A stretch of 64,000 bases of DNA from the NCBI RefSeq assembly GCF_030253575.1, contig NC_080559.1:33475501-33539500 (forward strand), in the 5' to 3' direction. A program made the translations under genes and the position numbers. The DNA comes from Rhododendron vialii. Lineage: Eukaryota; Streptophyta; Magnoliopsida; Ericales; Ericaceae. The notes under the pieces were generated by a model. It searched no databases, was not told the origin of the DNA, and worked only from the letters and a program-made list of their open reading frames with translations. Shown here one piece after another: positions 1,640 to 57,836 of the stretch (the stretch's first letter is position 1; every line of letters starts with the position of its first letter).

Positions 1640-1860
1640 GACCTGGCCAGGTGTGGAGACCTGGAACATAGGAATTTGTTCTCTTTAAAGATTTTAGGTT
1701 CGAAACTTGTCAGATAATATCAATTTTTTTGAAGCCAGTTCATACGGAACTTAATTTGCTCTTGCGATAATTGGACTTCCGGCAAGTAATTGGTTAGATT
1801 GAGTCCCAAAAATAGTTGATATGCGTGTAAGCTGATTCACGCAAATTAAAAAAAGAAATA
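1640..1860 (+). mobile_element. Degenerate SINE-like fragment (Au-type tail)
   Basis: It contains a GGTTCGAAA B-box-like segment near 1698. Further on is a diverged form of the Au-SINE tail (GATTGAGTCCC, then GATATGCGTGTAAGCTG, then an A-rich end). The same tail type occurs more clearly at 16305-16498 and 57952-58202. The 5' part is not clear, so this is probably a truncated or old copy. Confidence 0.4.
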
Positions 1861-1911
1861 CTAGAACAACGCATAGATGCCAATTAAGGTCGGTCCAACT
1901 CCTATATATAG

Positions 1912-1920
1912 CCATATAGG
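1912..1920 (+). promoter_or_regulatory. TATA box of ALDH exon 1A promoter
   Basis: CTATATATA lies 112 bp before the exon 1A start codon, in the duplicated promoter segment. The second promoter copy has lost about 8 bp here and reads CTACATATAGG, so only this upstream copy keeps a consensus TATA box. Confidence 0.6.
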
Positions 1921-2001
1921 CGCATCACAAGGCACATTTGGTATACAACTCTGTTATTCATAGTCTTTAGCTGAAGGCAAGAAAACTCATAGAAAGCCAT
2001 C

Positions 2002-2003
<2 letters not shown>

Positions 2004-2031
<28 letters not shown>
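2004..2031 (+). repeat. GA microsatellite abutting the exon 1A start codon
   Basis: An uninterrupted AG tract of 28 nt ends immediately before the ATG at 2032, so it lies in the 5' leader. The homologous tract before exon 1B is 71 nt. GA tracts of this kind in plant leaders can be bound by BPC/GAGA factors; whether that happens here is not shown by the sequence. Confidence 0.9.
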
Positions 2032-2035
<4 letters not shown>

Positions 2036-3482
2036 GGGCTGAAACCAAAGGAAACTTGGATTATTTGACTAAGATTCCAGAGATAAAGTTCACGAAGCTG
2101 TTCATCAATGGAGAATTTGTTGATTCCGTTTCAGGTTTTCCCATACTTCTTTTTTTTTTTGAGCTAGATGTTGAATTTCGTTTTCTTTTTTCCTTTTCAA
2201 GTTTGCTTTTCAAGTGATCACCGTAGTAGCATTGTTCATCTCAAAATTAGTAGCCACTATTTTCTTTGGAGAATTTTTAGGAGGTCCACGATAACGTGTT
2301 TTTAACTAGACGAAGATGAACAACAACTCTCTCAATGGACTTCTGATTTGAAGCATCCATCCCTTTTCTTCCAATGCTCATAATTCCAAGGAAATAGAAC
2401 AACCCCCCACACAGCCCCTTTCCAAACTTTGCTGTCAAGACTTAATGCCCTTTTAACCAACCCTCAACTACAATCACATGAAAATAAGATGAAATTTCCT
2501 TTTTTTTCTGACCATCAAATGAGACCCATTGCTGATAAAAAGAAATGAGACCCATTTAAGAATGATCAAGAAAGAAGAAAACCCAGGAGTGGAAGACACC
2601 AGAAAGATTGAGGTTGTTCTAAAAAAGAATCAATCTCCAACATCCGTTTAATCTTTGAAAACCTCCCCAAGAGTTCAGTGGTCCACTTCTACCTTCTTCC
2701 ATCCGCAAAATATTGAGAAGCCCTACAATAAAAAAACCCACACAGCAAAAAAGAAAAGGAATCTTCAAGGAGTAGTAATTACCCATAATAAGAAGTAAAC
2801 AATGATTAAGCAAACAAAAAATAAATAATAATACCTACTAGAGAACAACCTGGAAAATTCAGGTTCATGATTCTTAAAATCTGCTAGAAAAATGGCAGAA
2901 ACAAAAGAAGCAGCAAGTTGCAGAGACATGGTTTGAAGAACGGCGTCGCTCACACTGACCCCAAGAACAACAAGAAGAAACTAGACGACGATGAACAACA
3001 AGAACAAGAAGTGGACGGGACGAAGCTATTGACAGAGCGTATTTCGAGTCAAAGGAGGTGCCGCCGTGGCGGAGCTAGCTGACGGTCAGGACGTTCGCGA
3101 TGAGCTTTGTCTGGGAGAGAGAGAGAGGAGGCTGTGTTCCAGATTTATTTTTGATCTAGGGTTTCTCTCTAGCTATATATAGGTGAACACTTTTATCTTG
3201 GTTTAATTTCTTTTTTAAAAGAAGTGGATTTAAGGCCTTACCAAACTATATTAGTGGACTAGAAGGGTTATAAACATTAGAGGTTGACTAACTGGGTTAT
3301 AAGTTCTCTGTAATGGACCACAGACCAATTTTTTTAGAAAGGGAAATACTAGAACAAAGCATAGATGCCAATTAAGGTCGGTCCAACTCCTACATATAGG
3401 CGCATCACAAGGCACATTTGGTATGCAACTCTGTTATTCATGATCTTTAGCTGAAGGCAAGAAAACTCATAGAAAGCCATCG

Positions 3483-3559
<77 letters not shown>

Positions 3560-6500
3560 GGGCTGAAACCAAAGGAAACTTGGATTACTTAACTAAGATT
3601 CCAGAGATTAAGTTCACGAAGCTGTTCATCAATGGAGAATTTGTTGATTCCGTTTCAGGTTTTCCCATACTTCCTCCTCTTTTTTTGAGCTAGATGTTGA
3701 ATTTCGTTTTCTTTTTTCCTTTCAAGTGATCACCGTAGTAGCATTGTTCATCTCAAAATTAGTTGCCCCCCTATTTTCTTCCGTAATTAGATTTGATGCT
3801 TTCCTATCTCGAGCTCGAGCTTCTGGTATCGTCGGTCTTGTGTTCCAATCTTGCTTGTTTAGGCAAAGATCACTCTTCTTTTCTGTAAAAAAATGAAGAA
3901 AGAATCACTAGTGAAAAAATGAAAGCTCGCGGCTGAATTCCATGGCCGGCGGTAGGCTTGTTCACAAATGAGAAGAAAAAAAATCACCAGTATTACGTTT
4001 TTGATAACTCAACGGCACAATAAACCGACTAGTTTGGAAAACCAATTCCACATGTGCCAATGAGGGAGCCAATTTATGTTCGAACACAATTTTGTGTAGA
4101 TTGACAGAGTAAATGCTTTGTCCAAGCGGAGGTAGGACAAGCGGAGGTAGTTAGTGGGGGAGGTGAAACGTGCCACTTCCGTTTTGAAAAACCAAAAAAA
4201 AAAAAAATACACATAGTAAGGTGAAATCAAAAAATTTGAAGAACTTTGCATAAAACTCTCTTTGGTTAAGTTGGCAGCGTAGCTTCTATTGAGACATTGA
4301 ATCCCCTAGCGCCTTGTGTGTTTTTTTTTCTTTCCAAACTCTCTCTCTCTCTCTCAGCTTTGTAATTTCGAATTAATTGGAACTAAACGTGACCCATTTG
4401 GAAACAAATTTTTTTGCAAAACCCATTCGAACATATAAATTTTTTAAAAACTAATGCGGTTCGACTAGATATTTACAAGTATGAAAAGAAGGTACTCTAT
4501 ACAAACACTATCAAAAAAATGCAATTTAGAGAATGGTGGTTTCGGATCAAGAAAAAATTATATCGTAATGTGCATTTGCATACCATAAGAGTTGAATCAA
4601 GCCTTTATTTCTTTTTCAAAAACGAAAAATCCACGACAAAACCTAATCATTGAACGGTGTTACCCCCGCATGCGAATTCTGACTCCGCCCCTGTGTCCAA
4701 TCATATAGAGTGAGAGTCTATTTTTCTTGTAACAAATATGCATGCTTATGACCATCGATCAAATTTTTTATTTTTTTTTCCGTATAAACACATCAAAGTT
4801 TTTTTTTTAATATTTTTTATCCGCAACACATCAAAGTTCGAATGATAAAAATGTCGCTTTACGCTCATATTACAGAAATCAATCGTCATGCGAAAATATA
4901 CACGTTACATACTAGTATATGTATATACAAGAAGTATTTTCCAAGTAATCGAAGGCTGCTTGGAGAACGGTCAAAGTCAACTGCCCCAAGCGCACACGAT
5001 TGTGTGGTCCCCCAACAGTACCTATGACGTTTCGATAAGATTGTAGAACTTCTAAACGTACGGTTACCGACAAGGGAGTCCAATCTTGCAAATGTCGTTT
5101 GCCGTAATAATAGTGGACCGATTACGAACTGTAATTACGACATCACAAATTAATCGTTTCCTCCGGTATATACACAAGCTCGTTCGGGACACCTCGCATT
5201 ATTAAAAAAAAATGTATTCATTATTATGCATAATGATCTTGAATAGTTGGTATACTACTAGTATTTTTGAATCATCAACTCGATCCATCGGGGCGGTTAG
5301 AAATTTAAGAGAAGCTAATTAAATTTTGGGAAATGATTTTCGCATTCCTTTGTTATCCATTGGCACTCTCTTTTTTGTTTTTGCTCACTTGAAAGTACCA
5401 AATTGTCTTTCGAACAAGTAACTTAAGAGGTAAGGGTAATTTAGTCATTTCAACTTGACTACGTAGTAGTATTTGTTAAAGGGAGATTATGATTTACTAA
5501 TTATTTAACTTAAATCCGTAGTGAAATTGGAGATTAATAATTAAATTTCTGTATTTTCCTTGATTTTGAAAAGGGAAAACGTTCGAGAGCATAGACCCAA
5601 GAACGGGGGAAGTGATAGCCAGGGTTGCAGAAGGGGACAAAGAAGATGTGGATTTGGCTGTCAAGGCTGCCCGCCAAGCATTTGACCATGGCCCTTGGCC
5701 TCGCTTGCCTGGCTCTGTAAGTATATTATTGTCGTTACTGTCTTCTGCCGTCAAGTTGGAATAATCATCTGTCTTGACGAGACAAATCTAGAAAGCGTAA
5801 AATCATGAACCAAAAAAAATGGAAGGACAACTTCCTGACTTTGGTCATGATGATCCACTCAAGAAAAAAGAAGGAAAATAAACCATGGTTACAGTGTTTG
5901 GCCGAATGTCACATTCTAATCTTTATGTAATATGAATCTGTAGCAGTAGCTAAGTTTTTTCAAATTTTCTTTCAGGCAAGGAGAAAGATACTGATGAAAT
6001 TTGCAGATTTGATTGACGAAAATGTGGAGGAACTGGCAGCATTGGAGGCCATTGATGCTGGGAAGATCTTCGGTTGGGGAAAGGCCTTCGAGATCCCAGG
6101 CACAGCGGAGTCTCTCCGGTACTATGCTGGTGCAGCAGACAAGATTCACGGAGAGACGTTGAAAATGTCGAGCGCGAATCAAGGTTACACGTTGCGCGAG
6201 CCCATCGGTGTCGTGGGCCATATCATCCCTTGGAACTTCCCGAGTACCATGTTTCTGTTGAAGGTTTCGCCGGCACTAGCCGCCGGTTGCACCATGATCG
6301 TCAAGCCTGCTGAGCAGACGCCCCTTAATGCTCTCTACTTTGCTCATCTGGCTAAGTTGGTAGGCTTTTGGTTATTTATACACCCATAAAAAGGCTCATC
6401 AAAATATTCGAAAAAATCTTTGGGCGACTTTGATTCAATTAAAATGTGGTCTGTAACACTTTTTTTTATTTGAAAATTTCGGATCACGCATCCCTACCTT

Positions 6501-8644
6501 TGCATAGCATGATTTTGGCTTTTCACAATATTTAGAAAAGTCTAAAGTCGCTGAATTTGGACACCAAAAACTGCACCTAAAATGAATCATATGGTCTAGA
6601 CACATCTAAGTAAAATCTAGACTATGTAGTGCAATTTATGCACGATTTTGTGCGCCCTGGTTCTCTGCACTGAAGGCTAAGCTCTTTATCGATTTTATCA
6701 ACAGTACTATTTCATTTGTATCATGATATTTTCTTTCATTTGTATCATGATTTTTGTTTCAGGCCGGTATTCCAGATGGAGTGCTAAATGTGATAACGGG
6801 ATATGGAACGACAGCAGGCGCAGCCATTAGCTCTCATATGGACATTGATAAAGTGATTGCCAAAATTTTACTTATACTGAGAGTATTTCTTTTTTAACAG
6901 TCAATTGATATCACCTGATGTTAATTTCTCATCTCTTTATTTTCAGGTTAGTTTCACAGGGTCTACAGAAGTGGGACGCCTTGTAATGCAGGCTGCAGCC
7001 ACCAGCAATTTGAAACCTGTCACGCTTGAACTAGGAGGCAAGAGTCCTCTCATAATTTTCGACGATGCAGATCTTGATCATGCTGCAGAACTAGCCCTCG
7101 CTGCTAATTTGTTTAACAAGGTAATAAAACTTTCAAAAATTGTTCAAATCCCTTGTGTAGTCTGTCACGTGACATAAAATGGAATCCGCCATGATCTCAT
7201 TCGATGATTCAAGTTGTTCATTTTGTAAGACTGAGTAATCACATGACAGACCGTTAAATGAGAAGATCCTTGCTCAACCATAGGAGGGTACTGGTTTGCG
7301 TAAAAGATATGTTCTTTAGATTGATGTATGAGGAAACTCTTTTTTAACACCAAAACTCAATACCTGACTCTGTTAATTTTCCTCGTGCTCTCTTATTACA
7401 GGGAGAAGTTTGTGTGGCGGGATCGCGTGTTTTTGCTCAGGAAGGAATTTATGATCAGTTGGCGAAGAAGTTAGGAGAGAAGGCAAAGACATGGGTGGTT
7501 GGAGATCCTTTTGATCCTAACGTTCGCCAAGGACCACAAGTAAAAGCTCTAAACTTACACTTCTTCTGTCACTCTAATTGTAAAGTACAAGTAAAATTGA
7601 TGAAATACGCTGCCTCATACAAATACGACATGTGAAGATGCCAAATCTTCTATCGTCAAAACCCATGTTAACAAATTGACTTAACACTTTCCCGTAATTT
7701 GAACTTGCAATAGAACGCGTGCAAGATATTGTTGCTAAACTCGTGCCTTGAACATCAATCTTAAAACTCATGCAGATTGACAAGACGCAGTATGAGAAGG
7801 TGCTTTCGTACATTGAGCATGGCAAACGAGAAGGAGCCACTTTGGTAACTGGTGGTAAACCCTGTGGCGAAAAGGGATACTACATAGAGCCAACTATTTT
7901 TTCTGATGTTATGGTAAGCCCTTCCCCATCCAACAATTGCCTTCTAGTCGAGCTGTGTGAACAGCGTGTATTCTCTGTGTGCGTGGTTTATTCTTTCATT
8001 GATCGATCTTTGTGGATTTGAACAGGACAACATGACGATTGCAAAGGACGAAATATTTGGGCCTGTGATGTCTCTCATGAAATTCAAGTGAGTTTCCATT
8101 TCTAATGTTTCTCGTCTTTTTAGCCCCTCTATAGACTACTATAGATCATGAAACTCGTAAAGCAATTGTCTTTTGGTCGATAAATCTATGGAGAAATTCA
8201 CGATCCAAACAACCTTTTACCCTAGCCGAAATACAAATCAAACGTATTGTAGTATACAAGGTTATACTAAGAAAGTGGCCAAGTGGGTATATTTTTGCAA
8301 GAAACAAAACCTGTTTGCTTACTTACCCTTAGAAAACAGTACGTACCCAAGTGATAAATGTATTTTGTAGGACCGTGGAAGAGGCAATACAGAGAGCTAA
8401 CGCCACAAGATACGGGCTAGCAGCGGGGATAGTGACCAAGGACCTCAACGTGGCCAACACCGTCTCAAGATCAATTCGAGCTGGAACAATATGGATCAAT
8501 ACTTATTTCGCTTTTGACAAGGACTGCCCCTTCGGAGGGTTCAAGATGAGCGGGTTCGGGAAAGATACGGGCATGCAGGCACTTGAACAGTATCTTCAAG
8601 TCAAGTGTGTTGTTACTCCCATTTACAACTCTCCTTGGCTGTGA
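2032..8644 (+). CDS. ALDH2C4: Cytosolic aldehyde dehydrogenase, ALDH2C4/REF1-like
   Basis: NAD(P)-dependent oxidation of aldehydes to acids. The ALDH2C4/REF1 group converts coniferaldehyde and sinapaldehyde to ferulate and sinapate in the cytosol. Exons by frame and GT-AG: 2032-2134 (or alternative 3556-3658), 5574-5716, 5976-6359, 6763-6852, 6947-7120, 7402-7539, 7776-7913, 8026-8087, 8371-8644. These give 501 aa, the family length. Key residues fall at canonical numbers: Asn169 in IIPWNFP, Glu268 in LELGGKSP, and nucleophile Cys302 in GEVCVAGS. The GEVC signature and the YNSPWL C-terminus favour ALDH2C4 over mitochondrial ALDH2B, and there is no transit peptide. All nine exons are intact. 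An AATAAA signal follows at 8734. The MBF1c-like gene downstream is convergent. The exact substrate is inferred from the family. Confidence 0.9.
2275..3340 (-). pseudogene. Possible gene fragment on the minus strand between the duplicated ALDH promoters
   Basis: This 1.07-kb segment separates the two ALDH promoter/exon-1 copies. Read on the minus strand it begins with a TATA-like motif (3173-3182) and a CT-rich leader. A short frame follows from an ATG at 2929, starting [14 protein letters not shown] and open to a plausible donor near 2836. A possible second exon lies near 2610-2725. I do not recognise the product and no long downstream frame exists, so a captured or truncated 5' gene end is more likely than a working gene. 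A related ACTAGACGA-GATGAACAACAA segment occurs near both 2307 and 2981. Confidence 0.3.
3485..3555 (+). repeat. Expanded GA microsatellite before exon 1B
   Basis: A 71-nt uninterrupted GA tract abuts the ATG at 3556. It is 2.5 times longer than its paralogous tract at 2004-2031, so the repeat expanded or contracted after the duplication. Confidence 0.95.
3556..3658 (+). other. Duplicate first coding exon (1B) of the ALDH gene
   Basis: This 103-nt exon has the same length, phase and CAG/GT donor as exon 1A (2032-2134) and can splice to the exon at 5574. It differs from 1A at only three positions (TAT/TAC, TTG/TTA, ATA/ATT), all synonymous, so both versions encode the same 34 N-terminal residues. 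If transcription starts upstream at 1A, this exon lies inside intron 1. If it starts here, the protein is unchanged but the leader carries a 71-nt GA tract and the promoter lacks the clear TATA box. Confidence 0.85.
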
Positions 8645-11655: not shown

Positions 11656-12093
11656 TCACTTGTGCGCCTTTCCTCTGAGCTTAACACCGAGGACCCTCTC
11701 CATCTTCCCCAGCACAGCCTGATTCGGCACCGCCTTCCCGTTCTCGTACTCCTGCACCACCCGCGGCAGCTCGTTGATCTGCTTCGCCAGCTCGGCCTGG
11801 CTCATCTTCTTCTCGATCCTCGCCTTCTGGATCGCCTGCCGCACCTCCAGCCCCACCCTGTCCAGCGCCGCCGGCTCCGCCGCTTCGTCCAGCTTCCGCA
11901 CGTTCACGGCCGTCGCCGGCGGCTTCTTGTTCGCCCCGGCGTCGAACTTCTTCACGGTCTGGACCTGGGCGCCCGACCGGAGAGCCTGGTTCACGACCTT
12001 CGGGTCGCGCAAGTCGTGGGTCTTAGGCTTGGACTTGTGGATCACCACGGGTTCCCAGTCCTGGGTCACGGTTCCTGAAAATCGGCTAGGCAT
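11656..12093 (-). CDS. MBF1C: Multiprotein bridging factor 1c-like transcriptional coactivator
   Basis: MBF1 bridges transcription factors and TBP. The plant MBF1c branch is heat- and stress-induced and acts in thermotolerance in the nucleus. The intronless frame gives 145 aa; Arabidopsis MBF1c is about 148 aa. The start is the ATG at 12093 (MPSRFSG), because family members begin MPSR and the 13 codons upstream are not conserved. The N-terminal MBF1 domain has TQDWEPVVIHKSK, DLRDPK and VQTVKKFDAG. A C-terminal Cro/C1-type helix-turn-helix has KKMSQAELAKQI and VQEYENGKAVPNQ, and the protein ends in LRGKAHK. Lack of introns fits MBF1c rather than MBF1a/b. The third codon positions are strikingly GC-rich compared with neighbouring genes. 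Confidence 0.93.
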   Translation of the reverse strand: MPSRFSGTVTQDWEPVVIHKSKPKTHDLRDPKVVNQALRSGAQVQTVKKFDAGANKKPPATAVNVRKLDEAAEPAALDRVGLEVRQAIQKARIEKKMSQAELAKQINELPRVVQEYENGKAVPNQAVLGKMERVLGVKLRGKAHK

Positions 12094-12200
12094 ATCGTCG
12101 GAAACGAAGATTGATTCGTTAATTGATATCAATGATATCTACGTAAAATTGGAGAGAGAATGTATCGATTGATTTGTAAACAGAGGCTGTGGGAGGGGAA

Positions 12201-12405: not shown

Positions 12406-12790
12406 ATCCTACGAGGACCGACCAAAACCCACTGAAATTGTACCGACGGCCACCGCCGGGCCGTCTCCGGCCACCGGACGGCCGATCCAAGCCGTCCAAT
12501 AATTCTAAAAAAAAAACTGAGGGGGTCGATGCGGGAATCAACGGCATCCGATGTGTGTATGGTGGTTGGATCAAGCACCCATTTTTTCGTATACATATGT
12601 ATAAGAAAAAGTTGGGTGCTTGATCCAACCACCATACACACATCGGATTCCATTGATTCCCACGCAAACCCCCTCGGATTTTTTTTTTAGAATTTTTGGA
12701 CGGCTCGGATCGGCCGTTTGGTGGCCAGAGACGGCCCGGCAGTGGCCGTCGGTACGATTTTGGTGGGTTTTAATCGGTACGACTAGCAAT
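12406..12790. mobile_element. Foldback element, family A copy 1
   Basis: An almost complete hairpin of about 385 bp with arms of about 190 bp, centred near 12598 on an ATACATATGTAT palindrome. Both arms carry GTACCGACGGCCA, GGGCCGTC, an A-rich run, ATCAACGGCATCCGATGTG or its match, and GGTGGTTGGATCAAGCACCC. No transposase is encoded. A diverged second copy with the same blocks lies at 57474-57836. This copy begins about 190 bp upstream of the MBF1c-like TATA box. Overlapping frames on both strands here are by-products of the inverted repeat. Confidence 0.88.
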
Positions 12791-13545: not shown

Positions 13546-14618
13546 ACTTTAAAGGGGAAATTACATATCAATGGAGAAAGGAGTAAATAATGCCCAAGTG
13601 ATGGAGAGGTTTTTTCAAAATTTCATAAATATGGAACGGAGGAAAAATAATTTCCCATACATGAAACGGAGGAAAAATAATTCCCCATACATGGAGTTCG
13701 AATCTGGATATCCTAAGTTGCCATTTCCATGAAGGGACAACTTAGGTTCATAGAAGGGACCTAAGTCTATGAACCTAAATCTATCCGCTTCTACATAAAT
13801 CTATAAACCTAAGTCGTCCCTTCTATGAACTTCTTAAATATTCAATTTTTTGAGCATTTCTTCAATCTCCTTATCATTTCTATTATTTTCTGAGAAATTT
13901 GAGATCTGGGTTACTTGTAGATTTGAGTTTTTAAAGTATTTTGAGATTAGTGTATTTTGGCTAATTTTTTAGAAAGAGAAATGATAGAGAAAATAAGATA
14001 TATGTTTTCTAGCATCCACTTTATACTTTTGCTTTTAGATTTTAGAAATTGCCACTTAAAATTTCTTGTTTGGTTTTACTTGAAAATGTGAAGAAGTTAT
14101 GCTACTAGCTAATAAAGGGGCAATTTAAGTTCATAAAAAGGGCAACTTAGGTGCATAGAAGGGGCAACTTAAATTCAAACTCAGATTTGACTACAAACCG
14201 ACTTCTTGTTTTGGGAATTTTTTTCCTCCGTTTCATGCATAGAGAATTTCAGTTGGTCCATTTCATGCAAATCTACAAGTAACCCAGATTCCAAATTTCT
14301 CAAAAAATAATAGAAATGGTAAGGAGATTGAAGAAATACTCAAGAAATTGAATACCCAGGAAATTCATAGAAGGAGCGACTTAGTTTCATAGAAAGGGCA
14401 ACTTAGGTACATAGAAGGAGCAACTTAAATTCATGGAAATGGCAACTTAGGATATCCAGATTCGGACTCCATGTATGGGGAATTATTTTTCCTCCGTTTC
14501 ATGTATGGGGAATTATTTTTCCTCCGTTCCATATTTATGGAATTTTGAAAAAACCTTTCCATCACTTGGGCATTATTTACCCCTTTCTCCACTAATATGT
14601 AATTTCCCCTACTTTAAA
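13546..14618. mobile_element. Long-armed foldback element, 1.07 kb
   Basis: The left half is mirrored by the right half. ACTTTAAAGGGG, TAATGCCCAAGTGATGGA, GAACGGAGGAAAAATAA, CATACATGGAGT, GGATATCCTAAGTTGCC and GGGTTACTTGTAGATTTG on the left all recur in reverse complement on the right. For example, ATCACTTGGGCATTA is at about 14563 and CAAGTAACCCAGATT near 14276. Arms are about 380 bp, with internal GGCAACTTA sub-repeats and a central spacer of about 300 bp. No coding region is seen. It lies about 1 kb upstream of the MSH7 start. A transcript across it would form a long hairpin. Confidence 0.85.
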
Positions 14619-14950
14619 ATGTATAATTAATCACGTGATTAGGCGTGTATACATGGGTTTATTATTTTATTTTGTAAACCAACAAATAGTGAAATTATGA
14701 AAACAACACTGATTTTCATATTGTTTTCGTTGTTATCTATTCTTTTTGTTTTGTGGAATTTTTGGTTACAATTCCTATACTTTAAGCTTTGAGTAAGTGA
14801 CAATAACACTCATTGAGAACGTTGTTAACAACAGAGTCGAAAAGTCTAAAATCTTATTCTATTACCCTTACACCAGCTCATTTCGCGTACCTTCTCTCTC
14901 ATTCATATAATCTTTCAATGACAACCAAAGGCACTGCGTCAATCTTCTGT

Positions 14951-15246
14951 ATTGAATTACATTTGACCGCATCGAATTGCGCTTGGCCACTACGAATTGT
15001 ACTTGGCCGCTACAAATTACACTTGTCTGCTATGAATTACTCTTGGCCGCATCGAATTGCACTTGGCATCTACGAATTGCATTTAACCACATCGAATTGC
15101 ACTTGGCGGCTACTAATTGCAATTGGCCGCATCAAATTGCACTTGACATCTACGAAATGCACTTGGCCGCTACGAATTACTCTTAACTGCATCGAATTGC
15201 ACTTGGCCTCATCAAATGGCTCTTGGCCTCATCGTATTGCATTTGG
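14951..15246. repeat. 20-bp minisatellite, about 15 units
   Basis: Tandem 20-bp units close to ATCGAATTGCACTTGGCCGC run for about 296 bp without a break in period. Units alternate between ATCG- and TACG- starts and diverge by a few bases each. The period is not a multiple of three, so the frame across it (14813-15289) is a by-product of repetition. It ends about 350 bp before the MSH7 start codon. Confidence 0.93.
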
Positions 15247-15504
15247 AAGAAGAGCTACAAGAAGCTTATCACAGGGGTGTAAGTGTTAAAAAAAAGTTCA
15301 GTGGGGTGTTTCTGACACTCGCTCAGAGTAGAGGGGTGTAAAAGTCTATTTCCCCTTTTATTTTCCTGAAATTCGGAAAACCTTTTGCGAGACCCGAAAC
15401 CCAACCCGGTTCGAGGCTCTTTTTTTTTTTTTTTTTTTGGGTCAAGCGGAAATTCGGTTCGAGGCTTTTCGTCTCTGCGGGAACCATAGAAAACCCAAAA
15501 TATG

Positions 15505-15593: not shown

Positions 15594-18500
15594 ATGCAGC
15601 GCCAGAAGTCGATACTCTCCTTCCTCCAAAGACCCTCGCCTGAAAACCAGAAACCCAGCCAAAACACCCTCGACGGTCACCGCCTCCCTCCTCAGTTTCC
15701 GCCCAAGCAACCAAACCAAAACGCCGTCGTACCCAATCAACCTCCCGTAGCGTCAACTTTCGGCTCCTCCATCGAAATAGACACTCCGCCGGAGAAGGTG
15801 CCGCGTCGGATTTTTCCGGCGGGATTCGCCGGAGATGACGGAGGCGGGACGAGTTCTACGGTCTCGAGCATTATGCACAAGTTCGTGAAGGTTAAGGATA
15901 CAGAGAAATGTGTTGATAGGTACGGGTTTTGAATTGATAGAGTATTTAACTATTTATCGGTCTCTGCTTAGGGTTTGGTTACTGCTTTCATATTGAAGAG
16001 TTAGTGACTGAACGGTAACTTATTATTCGTCGACTATGTTCTAGTTCAGAGCAGTACGAATTTGATTTACTTATCAATTATTATTGTCATTGGTATACAA
16101 GAAAGTTAACTGCATTACATGTTCCTTTTCATGAACTAAACTAACAATAATACGCTCCTAAGGTCTCATGTCCAAAATCTCTTTTGGGCCAGTTCATACA
16201 GAGCTTTGCGCTCATGCTAGTGGGCGGTGAGATTGGTCCCCATGATTAGTCGAGGTTCGCGTAAGCTGCCTCGACACTTGGTTATTTAAAAAAAAAACTA
16301 AGAATAATACAGACCTAAGTCTCATATTCAAATCCACCCAAGTGTTGTAAACTCTTTTGGGCTAGTACATACGGGGTTTTACTCCGGCTTTAATTGGACC
16401 CTCCGCTAGTGGGAGGCGGGATTGATCCCCCGGATTACTAGTCGAGGTGCACGTAAGCAGGCCCAGACACCTGAGTTATTAGAAAAAGAAAAAAAACAAA
16501 ACAATAATACTGATTCGATTTGTTTCCATTTCATCGTGTGCAAGTAATTATAATTGAGGTGGTGAGATTCAATTCCAGGAATAAATTTTGAATTGATTGT
16601 TAGATTGTGTTTTAGTACTTTTAAGGTAGACATAGTTGTATGGTTATTATTAAGTCTCATTTGAATGGTTATTGTTATTTCTTTTGGAATATAGGAAACT
16701 TTCGTGCTGTTGTGTACTTGGGGTGTTTGGCATTTAGCCCGTGTGAGCATGTGCTATTTTTCTAGAGGAAAACCCCATTAGACTATGTTGATATATTAAT
16801 TCTCCTTGAATTCCTCATTTGTGACTATGTTATCTTTGAGCTATAATCTGTCAATCTAGCTAAATGCAAATGCAAACAAAAACACTTAATTCCAGCCTTT
16901 TTCCCATGCGTGTCACTTCTTCTTTACCTCATGTGCTTGTGTTGTTTACCCTTGATTATATTTATGTTGGCATCTTACAACATTTGTATGCTACTTTTAG
17001 GAACCAAGCATGTGGCGGTTCCTCCAAAGCCTGCTCAATTTATAGTAAATCAAGTAGCCTGGAAGCATTGCCTAATGAACATGCAGCTTTTGAACATCCT
17101 TTGAAGGGAAATGTTCTCAATGCCATTCGACAAGATCGCCCAGGGGATAAGGGGTGTCCCTTGCTTATAGAAACAAACGATGACGATATTTTTGGGCCAG
17201 AAACACCGGGTACTCGTCCGCTTGTTCCGCGGTCGAAGCGAATTCAAGAGGACTGCTCCAACTTTGGGGATAGGAGTGATTGCTCATTGTTGGACTCTAG
17301 CAAACGGATGAAGCTACTTCAAGATTCAAAGGCTGGAAACAAAAACCGCGAAGAGCTATCTGAAGTGACTAGTAAGTTTGAATGGCTCGATCCTTCTCAG
17401 ATCAGGGATGCTAATGGAAGGAGGCCCGGCAATGCGCTATATGACAAGAGGACATTGTATATACCTCCCAATGTGTTGAATAAAATGTCAGCATCACAAA
17501 AGCAATATTGGAATGCCAAATCTCATTATATGGACATTGTGCTTTTCTTCAAAGTGGTCAGTTATGAAGCTCCCATATCATCTCTCATTTGTTCTTTTTG
17601 AGTTTAGGTTGTCATATTTTCTGTCCACGTGATACGATGCACTAATAGCTAGCTCGATAAAGTCAAATGGTTATAGTTACACGATCAAGGCAAGTTATCA
17701 ATACTATTACGGGCACTATTACTTCTATGCATGTATCTATGAAATTTTGAATGGACAAGATTGTTTCTTACCCTCTTGTTTATTTGTCGAGACTACACTC
17801 AGCTAACTCTACAGCTATGCATGTCATACAGGGAAAATTCTACGAGCTGTATGAACTTGATGCCGAAATTGGTCATAAGGAGCTTGACTGGAAAATGACA
17901 TTCAGTGGTGTGGGAAAATGTCGACAGGTATTTTCTTCTGGCACTGAGTTTCTAGTTCTTCTCTTGATCAGCTCATAATGAGGTTTTTTGTAGATGTTGA
18001 AATTATTTCTACCCATTGACATGTTCCTTTGGCCAGGTTGGCATCTCTGAGAGTGGGATTGATGATGCCGTTCAGAAGCTGATTGCTCGTGGGTGAGGAA
18101 ATGTTTTATTTTTATTATTTGGGCACAATATTCCAATCTGCGTGACTGCTGAATGTATCTTAGGCCTAGATCTTACCCTCTAAATGGGTCCAAATGTTCC
18201 ATTCTTAAAGCAGAATGAGTTGTGGAAAGGTAAGGATGCCTTACACCTTTTGTTGTGAATATTGGCCCCAGATAGAGCATGCAGTCATTAGTCAATGACT
18301 CAATATCGATGCGTGTTAGGCCAGTCATTTACACATTACTCCTGTTTGGCTTTATAGTATCGAGGTATTTTAGCCTCTTTTGCCATATCTTCTTTCTGAA
18401 GGTATAAGGTTGGACGGATGGAGCAGTTGGAAACGTCTGAACAAGCAAAAGCCAGAGGTTCCACTGCTGTAAGTTTTCCTCTGACCGTTGAAATGGCCAA

Positions 18501-21500
18501 GTTATTTCACATACTGACAATTTTGTCTTTCTCTGTGTCATCTTTGACAAATAAAAATCTTTTTGATCTTTTCGTTCTTTTCATTTCCACCTACGGCAGT
18601 TCTCACAAGGTGTAGCCCCCTGCTGTTAGCCAAGGAATTCTGTAAGGTTTAATGCGTTTGGGTGGAAACTATTTCAGAGGCCTAAGTTTCAATAATGCAT
18701 GATACTGTCACCCCAATCTTCCAGGCCATAGCCAGTCTATGACTCATGCACCTAAAGTCAACAAGGTATCAAATAAACCCAATGTGCATTGAAAACCTTC
18801 CATCCATAGGTGGTGTCAAGGCTTTTATTTAGCCATTTAGAAATCCAAACCAAGGAGATGGATGGAAGACTTTTGAAAGTTCTTATGTTAGCTTTTACTT
18901 TTTATTCATCTTACTTTTGTCATCAATCATGGCTCTCTTTTTAGTTGTTGAGAGGGACGGCTGAAGTAATCTACATGATTCTGTCTGCTGCTCCTAAAAT
19001 ATAATACTGGATTCATGACGTGTAGTTTTTTTTTTTTGATCAGCAATTCATGATGTGTAGTTGGCCGAACACTCTAATCCTTCTCATATACCCCTTCAGG
19101 GGTTTTCCACTCATATCTGGTTTCTTGTAGTAGAAGCTAGTGTATACAAAGCTTATTCATATTTTTCAACCTGCTGTAATATCAAATAGACAATATTTGT
19201 GTGTACCTACGTCAAATGGACTTAGTTCACGATCTTGGAGTCTTCTGGAATGTAATTGCTTCCTTCTTTTGTATTTCTAAGTTCACAGCTCCCGGTACTG
19301 TGCTAAAACTAGTAAGTATAATAAATCTAGATTCAGCCACTTAGGTATTTACTTTTGTTACTTCGTATATTTTGGCAACTTTTGGTCATGTCTCATTCTC
19401 AGATTGTACAACTAGTGTCTCATTGACAGATGGTTCCAAGATGTTGCCAATTGAAGATTTGATATCACATGAAGTAAGGAAACTGTTATGACTGTTATGA
19501 TCTGTAATTTTGGTTTTCAGGTGATCCAAAGAAAACTTGTTCAAGTGGTCACACCATCAACCACAATGGATGGTAACATGGGGCCTGATTCTGTTCATCT
19601 TCTCTCTGTAAAAGAGGTTGGCATTGTTCTTTTATGATTAACCATACAAATGCAGGATGTTAATGTTTTGATTGGTTTGTTGACTTTGAATTTGTTGGTT
19701 GCTTCTGTCTATTTTTTCTTTTCTTTCCTTGTTCTATCTATGTTTCATCAATATTGATTTTTTTGTGTGTGTGGTGGTTTTGTTTTGACATTTGTATCCA
19801 GGGTAACTGCGAACTGAGGAATGGCTCAACTGTATATGGATTTGCTTTTGTGGACTCAGCTGCTTTAAAATTTTGGGTCGGTTCCATTAGTGATGATGCC
19901 TCCTGTGCCACTTTGGGGGCCTTGTTGATGCAAGTATGTTTTGTTCTACTTAATGTTTTGAATGATTTATGTACCTGCAATCTACGAAAATAGGCATTAT
20001 ACTATTATCCGGTCATTTGTTTTGATAATAGGTTTCGCCTAAGGAAGTTATATATGAAATTCGAGGTAACTTATTTACTTGAATTTCAAATTATGGATTC
20101 TGATATTGACCCAGAGCTTTTCTCAAGACTGCTATTTCTCAAATATGTTCCAGGGATGTCCAAGGAAGCTCAAAAAGCTCTCAAAAAATACACATCAACA
20201 GGTGAGTGGATGATTACAGTTAAAACTTTTAGTTAGAATTTCCTGAAAATCATATCTTGTTCTTTTATCAACATATATTGGTGCTCTTTCGCATAGAAGC
20301 AGACTAACATAGAAAAAATGGCAGATAGAATACTCACAACTTAGAAGGTTTCATGCGACTTAAGAGTGGAGAAATATGATTTTAACCACAATCGGCTTTA
20401 AGCCATAGTTTGCTATTACCATGAAGAGTTGGTCTCTTGTTTATTCAGTGTATTTGCGTTCTTGAGGTTAGTTGTTCTAGGAAATGACTGTCTCTCTCAT
20501 GTCAGCCATAGTTCATTAGGAAGAACTTCAATTACAAAGTGTTTGGACTTCCATTAATGTAGAAGACAAGGTTCAAAATTTTCAAGACAAAGGGATTAGT
20601 TTTGAAGTTCCGTCTATATCGCAGGATCATCACTACTGACTCCAGTACAACCAGCCATTGATATGGGCAATGGCTCTGATGTCAGAAATGTGATTCAGCT
20701 GAAGGGATACTTCAAAGGTTCTGGTAACAAATGGGATCAAGCTCTGGAAGGTGTTATGCACCATGATCTTGCTTTGTGTGCTCTTGGTGGCCTTATTAGT
20801 CATCTATCAAGGTTGATGGTAAGCTTTCCCATGTGGCATATCTCAACATTGGGAGCATTAAATATCTTCCGTAGTTTTGTGACTGGCACCTTCCGATTGT
20901 TTGGCAGTTAGATGACGTTTTGCGTAACGGAGATATTCTACCATACCAAGTCTATAAAGGTTGCCTCAGAATGGATGGGCAGACACTGGTTAATCTTGAA
21001 ATTTTTAGTAATAATGCTGATGGTGGTCCATCAGGCAAGTTTTCACAACTAACCTTCAAGTGTTGCTACTTGTTTTGAAGACCAATTGCCTTCTCTATTA
21101 CAACATTTTGATTTCCTTAGTTATGTTACTTCAAGTTTCTCTTATTTGAGTTTCAGGTACACTGTACAGTTATCTTAATAACTGTATAACTGCATCTGGT
21201 AAGCGTCTTCTGAAAAACTGGATCTGCCATCCTCTGAAAGATGTAGAGGAAATTAATTGTAGGCTTAATGTGGTTGAAGAACTAATGACTCATCCCGAGG
21301 TTGTGTTACTTATCGCTCAATATCTTCGCAAGCTCCCAGACTTGGAAAGGTTGCTTGGACGAGTTAAGGCTAGCTTTCAGTCATCTGCTACACTCGTTCT
21401 GCCATTAATTGGCATAAAAGTTTTGAAGCAGCGAGTAAGTCTTTTCTACCTCTTAACATAAGCAATGCGGCCTTTGTTCACTCTGAATAGGTTTTGAAAT

Positions 21501-24434
21501 TGCAGATATTTTTCAGTAGTTTGCAAATAAATAGAGCATTTTTGTAGCAATTCTTTTCGTTTGACGTAAATATATAAGCAGTTAGGAGTGAGCACAAGCC
21601 ACATGGTCCCATGTTAGTAAGTTTTGAAATTAAGCATCTCTTGTGTTAGTTTGCATTGCATTTTGTGTCGATCCTTTTTGTTCAATGTAAAGATATAAGT
21701 TATAACTATTCGAGAGCGGCACAGGTCAAAACATTTGGGTCTCTTGTTAAAGGCTTGCGTGTTGGAGTAGATTTGTTGACACTTCTGCAAAACGAGGGGC
21801 ACACGATCTTATCAATGTCAAAGGTTCTCAACCTTCCAGTGCTAAATGGTAGCGACGGGCTTGATAAATTCCTTACTCAATTTGAAGCAGCTGTAGAAAG
21901 TGACTTCCCCAATTACCAGGTCTGCTTCTTTATTACTCTATAAATCATAATCGTTATGACTTGCCTGCTATGTAGTTGAGGACTACCTGGTGGTGAATAC
22001 AGACTGATCCACTAGCATGGCAATAAGTATGTTGATCATGATTAGACTGCACTGCATTTTGGTGTAATATGATGCAAGTACCTGCAGAGCCTCAACGATA
22101 TAACCTCAATTTGTATCATCCACTGTGTAATCAGCCCTATGCATCAAGCGAACTAAAAGTTTGTTGAGACTTAAATGTTATCAGCCAACGCAGATGATGA
22201 TTCTCGACAACATGAATTTTTTTACTGGGGGATAAACTTCGGAAAAAGTCTCCAACTCGGTCTCTGTTGTATGCTATTTACTCAAGAAAACATACTTCAA
22301 TGGAGATACTATGTCATCAAATCTGTTTCCTGGACTTACTTTAGAATCCTGAACAATGTAAGGATACAGCTAAAAGTTGCATGACAAAAAGGGCTGTTCA
22401 ATTCAAGGTCTTGGTCCCAGTTTAAGAAAAGGTTATTTGAACTGATTTCCACTGGAAATGTTGAGTTTGCATCGACCTCTCTCTTCCCACAAGTTTTGTT
22501 TGTCTTTCTCATTTGAGTGATGATATCCATGCAATTTGTTTGTAACAATATATTGATCATAACTTACGGAATCGATGGTACCAGGACCATAATGTGAAGG
22601 ACTCCGATGCTGATATCCTCTCAATTCTGATTGAGTTATTTGTTGAAAAAGCTGTTGAATGGTCTCAAGTCATTCATGCCATAGATCGTATCGATGTCCT
22701 AAGATCTTTTACCGTCACTGCCAATTCTTCATGTGGGGCTATGTCTAGACCTGTCATTTTGCCTCTTTCTGAATCCCCCAGCTTGTCCCAAGTAATCAGA
22801 GGACCAATACTTAACATCAGAGGACTGTGGCATCCTAATGCCCTCGGTGAGAATGGAGAGCTGCCTGTTCCGAATGATATTGTCCTTGGAGAAGAAGCAG
22901 ATGGATATCATCCCCGAACTTTGCTGTTGACTGGACCTAATATGGGTGGAAAATCCACCCTTCTACGTGCTACTTGTCTAGCTGTTATACTAGCCCAGGT
23001 ATGTTTCCTCCTATTAAATCTGAAATCTTTGCGTAGAGGAAATAAATGGCTGCCTCTGTAGTTTTGGAATCGTGAAAGTATTCCTAAGTTTATTGTTCCT
23101 TATTCTGTGAATGACTCTTTCCCTGGCTTGCAGCTGGGCTCTTATGTGCCTTGCGAGGTGTGTGTTCTTTCCCTCGTGGACACCATTTTCACTAGGCTTG
23201 GCGCCACTGACAGAATAATGACAGGCGAGAGTAAGTTCTATTTAGCCAGCTGACAGTTGTTTCATTTGAATCCTTGAATCAATAACGTTCTTTTTTTGTA
23301 TGATGGGGAGTGCACCCAGTGTTGGGAAATATATGTTTCTGGCGGCAGTGAGTTGGTGGCATAGTAGACAGACGAGTGGTGGTGGAACTAATAAATAATA
23401 ATGATATAATTGGGCCAAGGGTCTTATTTACGCAAGTCATCCAACATTTGAGGCTTCACTCATGGAATATAGGGTTTACACACAAACACCTCAAGAGACT
23501 TCTCTAGCTACATATATTCAGTCTTATGCCTCTGATTTTGTAGGTACCTTCTTTATTGAGTGCACAGAAACAGCATCGGTCCTTCAAAATGCGACACAAG
23601 ATTCACTGGTTATTCTTGATGAATTAGGACGAGGAACGAGCACCTTTGATGGATATGCTATTGCATATGCTGTGAGTTTTCAGTATTCAGTTGAATTTTG
23701 AGCATTGTGATAGATAAGCTTAGTTTCAGATTTTTATGAACTTGGGTATCACTCGTAGGACATGAAAATGACAGCATCTTTGAAGAAATTTTTTAGAATG
23801 AATGCACTTCTAGGTCAAAAATCTTGAGCTGCCCAGAAGTAATTACTGCTACACTATTAACCATTCAATATGGAGTTACGTTTGATTTCTATTTCCTGCT
23901 CTTATCCATATTTGAACGAGTATTTTCAGTTTGTATGATTCCACGATATTTGCACAGGTTTTTCGCCATCTTGTTGAGAAAGTCAACTGCCGTTTACTTT
24001 TTGCAACACATTATCACCCACTGACTAAGGAATTCGCTTCTCACCCTCATGTCATTTTGCAACACATGGCCTGTGCTTTCAAGTCGAATTCCAACAACTC
24101 ATTTCAAGGAGGCAATGATTTAGTTTTCCTTTACCGGCTGGCCTCTGGGGCATGCCCGGAGAGCTACGGTATGCAAGTGGCTCTCATGGCGGGGATCCCA
24201 AAACGGGTGGTGGAAACCGCCGCAAGGGCTGGAGAAGTGATGAAGCAATCTATCGGAGAAAGTTTCAAGTCGAGTGAACGGAGGTCTGAGTTTTCGAGTC
24301 TCCATGAAGAGTGGCTGAAGACCCTGTTAAGTGTCTCGACGACGGGAGAAGGTAATGTTGATGATGACAATGATGCCTTTGATTCATTGTTTTGCCTCTG
24401 GCATGAGCTGAGAAACTCGTACAAAGTCGGGTAA
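15594..24434 (+). CDS. MSH7: DNA mismatch repair protein MSH7
   Basis: Plant-specific MSH6 paralogue. It pairs with MSH2 (MutS-gamma) to recognise a subset of base mismatches in the nucleus. Exons: 15594-15919, 17001-17556, 17832-17927, 18037-18092, 18402-18468, 19521-19616, 19802-19933, 20032-20065, 20154-20201, 20625-20818, 20908-21034, 21157-21434, 21725-21919, 22585-22998, 23134-23230, 23544-23671, 23958-24434; total 1106 aa (Arabidopsis about 1109). The N-terminus [12 protein letters not shown] is a PCNA-binding box whose second aromatic is Leu. TPPEKVPRR and HKFVKVKD are MSH7-type motifs. The mismatch-contact Phe-Tyr-Glu is at residues 297-299. Walker A GPNMGGKS is at 852-859, and Walker B has D931/E932 in [13 protein letters not shown]. 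All introns are GT-AG except intron 11, which is GC-AG. The long N-terminal region between the PIP box and domain I is poorly conserved, as usual. Confidence 0.94.
16143..16290 (+). mobile_element. Au-type SINE, partial, in MSH7 intron 1
   Basis: GGTCTCATGTCCAAAATCTC, TTTTGGGCCAGTTCATAC, a GATTGGTCCCC block and GTCGAGGTTCGCGTAAGCTG are followed by CGACAC and an A tail. This is the Au-SINE body and tail pattern. It is truncated at the 5' end and about 15 bp from a second, similar copy. Confidence 0.6.
16305..16498 (+). mobile_element. Au-type SINE in MSH7 intron 1
   Basis: It contains TTCAAATCCACCC, TTTTGGGCTAGTACATACGG, CTAGTGGGAGGCGGGATTGA, GTCGAGGTGCACGTAAGCAG and CCCAGACACCTG, then an A-rich tail. 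These are recognisable Au-SINE 3' features. It is adjacent to the copy at 16143-16290 and in the same orientation, so the two may be a nested or tandem insertion. Confidence 0.65.
20032..20065 (+). other. 34-nt micro-exon of MSH7
   Basis: Exon 8 encodes only [11 protein letters not shown] plus one base. Both flanking introns are GT-AG, and joining to the 48-nt exon 9 restores the frame (GGG-ATG-TCC-AAG). The segment corresponds to the conserved VSPKEVLYD stretch of Arabidopsis MSH7. Gene finders may miss it and extend exon 7 or a false exon instead. Confidence 0.85.
21035..21156 (+). other. GC-AG intron 11 of MSH7
   Basis: The donor is CAG/GCAAGT and the acceptor TTTCAG/GTAC. Splicing here gives the conserved sequence GGPSGTLY. 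No GT donor nearby keeps the frame. The otherwise strong match to the 5' splice consensus is typical of functional GC-AG introns. Confidence 0.88.
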
Positions 24435-52335: not shown

Positions 52336-52549
52336 GTTAGACCTCTAATCCTCGGTATTTTCTCCCACCCCCTCCTTTTTGTAGTTCTTACATGTTTGGC
52401 TTTGTGATGTTTCTCCCTGTCGTAATTTGCTACTTTGATTACGACATTGAAAAGTACAAGATGGTATAATTCATATTGATCTTGAACAAAATACTTTGAT
52501 GAAGGCCATAGCATGGGCACATCATCTCTTCTGATATAGTGGCGGCTCT

Positions 52550-52735
52550 CATCTTGAATTTTTATAGGAAACCTTTATTTGTATGCTTTTGTAAGGGAAT
52601 ATTGGAGTTTGGATAGATGCATTAAAGTTCTCTTAGAATCTTTCATCTTGAACTTTAATAGGAAACCTTTATTTGTACACTTTTGTAAGGGATATTGGAG
52701 TGTGGCTATATGCATTAAAGTCTGTTTAGAATCGG
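52550..52735 (+). repeat. 94-bp tandem duplication in VIL1 leader intron
   Basis: The block CATCTTGAATTTTTATAGGA to TTAGAATCTT recurs with a 94-bp offset starting CATCTTGAACTTTAATAGG at 52644. Both contain GGAAACCTTTATTTGTA and TGCATTAAAG. Divergence is moderate, so the duplication is not very recent. Confidence 0.85.
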
Positions 52736-57473: not shown

Positions 57474-57836
57474 GGGACCGACGGTTCCCATACTGAAACT
57501 GTACCGACGGCCACGCCAGCTCCGGCCACCAGACGGTCGTTTCAAGCCGTCCAAAAATACTATTAAAAAAAACGAGGGGGCCTACGTAGGGATCAACGGC
57601 ATCTAATGTGTGTAAGGTGCTTGATTCAAACACCTTATTTTTCATGTATATATGTATATACATGTATATACGAAAAAATGGGATATTTGGATCGTGCACC
57701 TACACACGTCGGATACTTTTGATTCCCGCGCTAGCCCACTCGATTTTTTTTTTATAGAATTTTTGGATAACTCGGATCAGCCATCCAGTGGCCGGAGACG
57801 GCCCGGCACGGCCGTCAGTATGATATTGGTCGGTAC
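57474..57836. mobile_element. Foldback element, family A copy 2
   Basis: A hairpin of about 360 bp centred near 57655 on a run of TATATGTATATACATGTATA. It shares with the copy at 12406-12790 the ordered blocks GTACCGACGGCCA, CTCCGGCCACC, AAGCCGTCCAA, an A-rich run, GATCAACGGCATC, ATGTGTGTA and the mirrored GGAGACGGCCCGGCA. It is more diverged between its own arms than copy 1, so it is probably older. Confidence 0.82.

Follow-up and report, generated by a model that had tools for sequence, protein, structure and literature searches.

Does a gene with two nearly identical first exons use both as alternative starts kept by selection, or has it undergone a partial duplication after which one copy does most of the work? 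The question is raised by an ALDH2C-type aldehyde dehydrogenase (ALDH) gene of Rhododendron vialii, the first gene in the window (the whole 64,000-nucleotide stretch of DNA analysed), which lies on the + strand and comprises nine exons when one first exon is counted.

The gene and its duplicated unit

The encoded protein matches the Pfam Aldedh family (PF00171, E 2e-178), contains ELGG at 268 and Cys at 302, and among PDB sequences, with which alone it was compared, is closest to maize cytosolic RF2C (4pxl). The Aldedh domain, Glu268 and Cys302 (which we take to be the catalytic residues of this ALDH) and the plant cytosolic enzymes as nearest relatives point to membership of the ALDH2C (REF1/RF2C) group. 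The exons are as follows.

2032..2134, + strand: exon 1A, coding, 103 nt, donor CAG/GTTTTC (alignment and spliced model)
3556..3658, + strand: exon 1B, coding, 103 nt, donor CAG/GTTTTC (alignment and spliced model)
5574..5716, + strand: exon 2, common to both versions (this and all later exons from the spliced model)
5976..6359, + strand: exon 3, common to both versions
6763..6852, + strand: exon 4, common to both versions
6947..7120, + strand: exon 5, common to both versions
7402..7539, + strand: exon 6, common to both versions, contains Cys302
7776..7913, + strand: exon 7, common to both versions
8026..8087, + strand: exon 8, common to both versions
8371..8644, + strand: exon 9, common to both versions, includes the stop codon

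The first-pass annotation had described two 103-nt first exons of the same phase and donor, both able to join the exon at 5574, and the coordinates and the join are as it claimed. Spliced models of exon 1A or exon 1B with exons 2–9 are each 1506 nt long and open to the same stop, all eight introns obey the GT-AG rule in either version, and the two 501-residue proteins show no amino-acid difference. Self-comparison of the window revealed no second set of later exons.

The exons lie within two copies of a longer unit, separated by a segment that we call M:

1855..2267, + strand: copy A, comprising proximal promoter, leader, exon 1A and the first ~130 nt of intron 1 (alignment to copy B)
2268..3342, no strand assigned: segment M, between the copies, 1,075 nt (self-comparison, repeat and motif scans)
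3343..3780, + strand: copy B (alignment to copy A)

These limits are close to the 1855–2265 and 3343–3775 given earlier for the flanking copies. Of the ~0.41 kb spanned by the unit, promoter and leader contribute ~150 nt and the intron ~130 nt; the unit also includes a GA run and the 103-nt exon. The match between the copies is far above chance (BLASTN E = 4e-144 over 460 columns) and is the longest of the 12 pairs listed in the self-comparison (dust-filtered, E up to 1e-8, at least 60 nt), with six gaps in the alignment, all lying outside the exon. Copy A retains the distal upstream sequence, and copy B is contiguous with the remainder of intron 1, nearer exon 2. The locus is probably a real partial tandem duplication of the proximal promoter, leader, first coding exon and start of intron 1. 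Another local tandem copy in the window, at 52546–52733, is a directly adjacent duplication of about 95 nt with 86% identity.

Divergence of the copies and the case for selection

Exons 1A and 1B differ at 3 of 103 sites (2064/3588 T-C, 2067/3591 G-A, 2085/3609 A-T), and all three differences are synonymous, bearing out the earlier statement that the N-terminus is identical whichever exon is used. Noncoding divergence between the copies is 8/258, made up of 4/140 aligned sites in the promoter and leader before the GA run and 4/118 in the intron part. This is a trimmed count, which leaves out 29 GA-run positions, a T-G mismatch beside the GA run (2003/3527) and three mismatches upstream of 1855, where the alignment is poor (11/265 with these three included). 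The comparison of exon with flanking divergence proposed as a check in the first-pass annotation yields no contrast (Fisher p = 1.0), and we reject the suggestion that the exon is more conserved than its flanks. If synonymous sites only are considered, the exon differs at 3 of about 22–27, which is if anything above the flanks (Fisher p 0.05–0.07). Corrected by Jukes-Cantor, noncoding divergence amounts to 0.032, corresponding to 2 to 11 million years at substitution rates of 7e-9 to 1.5e-9.

Conditional on three changes, the probability that all three are synonymous is 0.010–0.019 if both copies were free to change and 0.043–0.073 if one was constrained. Using the noncoding rate, the likelihoods of constraint on both copies, one and neither stand at approximately 11 : 3.3 : 1, with ratios in favour of both of 3.2–3.5 over one and 10–12 over neither; the pattern is weakly suggestive of constraint on both copies rather than one, by ~3.3-fold. 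Three synonymous changes also exceed the number predicted from the noncoding rate (P 0.03–0.05), and no simple model fits well.

Selection may instead maintain both first exons as alternative starts in active use, their separate promoters yielding one protein under different leaders or in different tissues; the gene would then resemble PEP1 of Arabis alpina in function as well as layout. We consider this a serious but rather unlikely alternative. Besides the likelihood ratios, it can draw on the lack of indels in the exon when indels lie on either side, although the chance of this is 0.26 with four indel events entered and 0.19 with all five non-GA gaps, and on the precedent of PEP1, which has distinct start sites and expression according to the available part of that report (PMC3527215). 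However, the exon differences number only three, exon and flanks have diverged equally, and the core promoter and leader of copy B look impaired.

Two unequal starts

The elements that distinguish the promoters and leaders of the two copies are:

1903..1910, + strand: TATATATA box in copy A, 129 nt upstream of the start codon (consensus match, putative function)
2005..2030, + strand: (GA)13 in leader A (sequence)
3423..3443, + strand: upstream ORF 1 of leader B, running from ATG to TGA over 6 codons and a stop (read from the sequence, assuming a transcription start upstream)
3440..3454, + strand: upstream ORF 2 of leader B, 4 codons followed by a stop (read from the sequence)
3485..3554, + strand: (GA)35 in leader B (sequence)

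Eight bases of copy A (1905–1912), which form most of its TATA box, fall in one of the six alignment gaps and are missing in copy B, so that the TATATATA of A is absent there. Leader B contains ATGs at 3423 and 3440 with no counterpart ATGs in A, where no ATG occurs between the TATA box and the start codon; an ATG upstream of the TATA box, at 1877, does have a counterpart in B at 3365. Two of the four substitutions in the promoter and leader create the ATGs of B (3425, 3442) and a third adjoins them (3443). When random changes were placed in the promoter and leader of A, a net gain of at least two ATGs followed four changes in 1.7–1.9% of 50,000 simulations and three changes in 1.0%, figures which refer to an excess spotted after the fact. 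The polarity of these differences could also be the reverse, copy A having gained its TATA box or lost ATGs. RNA folds of the leaders, taken from an assumed start, do not beat shuffled sequences in either copy (z 0.12 and 0.03).

The proposal that the gene has two promoters making one protein with different leaders therefore survives in part. Two first exons, one protein and different leaders are present at the level of sequence, but two promoters are doubtful because copy B is without the TATA box of A and carries two upstream ATGs in its leader. Copy B may be active, because many plant promoters have no TATA box.

Candidate acceptors through which exon 1B might be included behind exon 1A were sought between 2135 and 5573, as at least 12 pyrimidines among the 15 bases before CAG or TAG. 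Only 2168, 3694 and 4358 were returned, in a crude scan that also misses the real acceptor of exon 2. A hypothetical form joining exon 1A, 3341–3658 and exon 2, with the acceptor at 3341 picked by eye, runs into a stop.

We favour, with a probability of about one half, a real and mostly neutral partial tandem duplication in which copy A is the main working start and copy B a weaker or specialised one that is drifting or diverging in regulation. Copy A would be served by its distal upstream sequence, its TATATATA box and a leader in which no ATG precedes the start codon, and copy B would be limited by the absence of the TATA box of A, by its pair of short upstream ORFs and by its long stretch of GA repeats. 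In transcripts from A, exon 1A would be spliced over M and exon 1B to exon 2, because exon 1B has no obvious acceptor; any transcripts from B would arise from a TATA-less promoter and bear a leader with upstream ORFs. Whichever first exon is used, its joining to the one exon 2 is predicted to yield an identical protein, and no protein change would have been gained from the duplication. The similar divergence of exon and noncoding parts and the two open, identical models are in keeping with this neutral account. Against it count the synonymous nature of all three exon differences, and the intact start codon and donor of copy B, nearer exon 2, after roughly 3% divergence.

An elaboration would divide regulation between the leaders: mRNA from A would be freely translated, and copy B, which has no TATA box and would be fed by the foreign segment M, would produce mRNA that is restrained by its two upstream ORFs and long GA tract. 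One ALDH would then come from two differently controlled messages, with selection holding both coding exons identical. We regard this as unlikely.

The intervening segment, its origin and known systems

At E 0.01, segment M matches no other part of the window, the sole hit being an internal repeat of 23 nt (2304–2326 and 2979–3001). The segment bears on the improbable case that the duplication is an assembly artefact, in which two alleles of a heterozygous plant were set side by side. The ~3% divergence of the copies, with microsatellite and small indel differences, is near the range of plant heterozygosity, and GA runs are prone to assembly error. For lychee, a heterozygosity of 2.27% is reported. 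However, if haplotype ends had been joined, the left half of M should resemble the intron after copy B, and the right half should resemble what precedes copy A. Neither resemblance is above that of shuffled sequences (40 and 10 of 100 shuffles score as high) and BLAST returned no hit between them; M copies neither the remaining intron nor the upstream region, and a simple haplotype mis-join is not supported.

Transposon insertion with a target-site duplication is likewise unsupported within the window. The duplication flanking M exceeds 400 nt and transposon target duplications are far shorter, none of the 14 inverted-repeat pairs listed for 2240–3380 joins both ends of M, and no B box was found within it. 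CTRR motifs, candidate Helitron signals, were listed by the motif scan. Fifteen stop-to-stop frames of at least 40 aa overlap 2269–3342; among the five scanned in Pfam, two gave three matches (PIG-Y, DUF2427 and OMS28 porin), all below curated cut-offs and taken as chance, providing no sign of a gene fragment in these frames. Rfam gave no match across the whole window at gathering scores.

On the minus strand of M, at 3183–3130, CCTATATATAGC (3183–3172) is followed by a stretch containing AAACCCTAG, an arrangement like that of a plant core promoter and leader, and a possible antisense start pointing from M toward exon 1A. A reversal of roles, with B as the main start and A a relic cut off by M and the longer intron, is improbable: nothing interrupts the sequence between B and the remainder of intron 1, and the minus-strand CCTATATATAGC may mark an antisense start that interferes with A, but A retains its TATA box, its leader lacks upstream ATGs, and no block to transcription by M is known.

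Returning to a real and mostly neutral duplication, its simplest and most likely history would be a single break-repair event which copied the flank and put the 1.07-kb M between the two copies. One insertion with duplication fits better than a duplication followed by a later, unrelated insertion, because M sits at the copy junction and the rest of the window contains no match to it. In rice, according to the available part of the source (PMC7971508), tandem duplications are the most frequent kind of insertion but make up only ~5% of insertions from about 200 bp upwards, with examples up to 4.9 kb. The layout here would suit tandem duplication by patch repair, but the copies are not adjacent and such tandem copies are infrequent among the larger rice insertions.

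PGM1 reportedly has a duplicated first exon with two promoters, and its two first exons are said to encode different N-termini, whereas here the N-terminus is identical. The layout as a whole is already known from PEP1 and does not constitute a new kind of system. In PEP1, as described in the accessible portion of the report, the tandemly duplicated segment covers exon 1 with portions of the promoter and of intron 1, exons 1a and 1b are both transcribed and both splice to one exon 2, exons 2–7 are common, identical proteins are predicted in accession Paj, and 5' RACE on another accession located distinct start sites (PMC3527215). The present locus likewise has copied promoter, exon 1 and intron 1 parts, one set of later exons and identical proteins. 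It differs in being an ALDH2C-type enzyme gene rather than a MADS-box flowering gene, and in scale, the copied segment being 0.41 kb and the exons 1.5 kb apart, compared to ~2 kb and 6.3 kb in PEP1. Both transcripts and their start sites were demonstrated by 5' RACE in PEP1, whereas here the two starts are predicted from sequence.

Type I alternative first exons of rice and Arabidopsis are mutually exclusive and share their downstream exons, and in the commonest case yield the same single ORF, starting in the common downstream exon, according to the available text (PMC2174465). With two first exons, compatible donors and one downstream exon, the ALDH gene would be a candidate of this type, although each of its first exons has its own identical start codon. 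The string 'Duplicat' is absent from the main text of that paper, as is the word 'exon' from the main text of the REF1 paper (PMC5087895). Among the open-licence papers surveyed, none was seen to describe such a duplication for an ALDH gene, which is weak evidence of absence. The locus offers a small, clean natural test case. Its protein stays the same while promoter and leader alone vary, so that the influence of TATA loss, of upstream ORFs and of the length of the GA tract on a single enzyme is measurable within one gene. If neutral, it exemplifies how alternative first exons may arise by repair-type duplication.

Several other features of the window were recorded. Frames resembling an MBF1-type coactivator (11656–12138, minus strand) and an MSH6-like mismatch repair gene (15600–24434, plus strand) were named by eye. 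A diverged array of ~40-nt tandem repeats at 14953–15246 lies within a + strand frame open for 160 codons (14807–15289). An inverted repeat, 13553–13925 and 14268–14610, is 84% identical over 373 columns and forms a foldback or MITE-like element. Two copies of another sequence, at 12431–12768 and 57492–57834, are 74–75% identical and match in both orientations; each is therefore probably palindromic, and they likely represent a MITE family.
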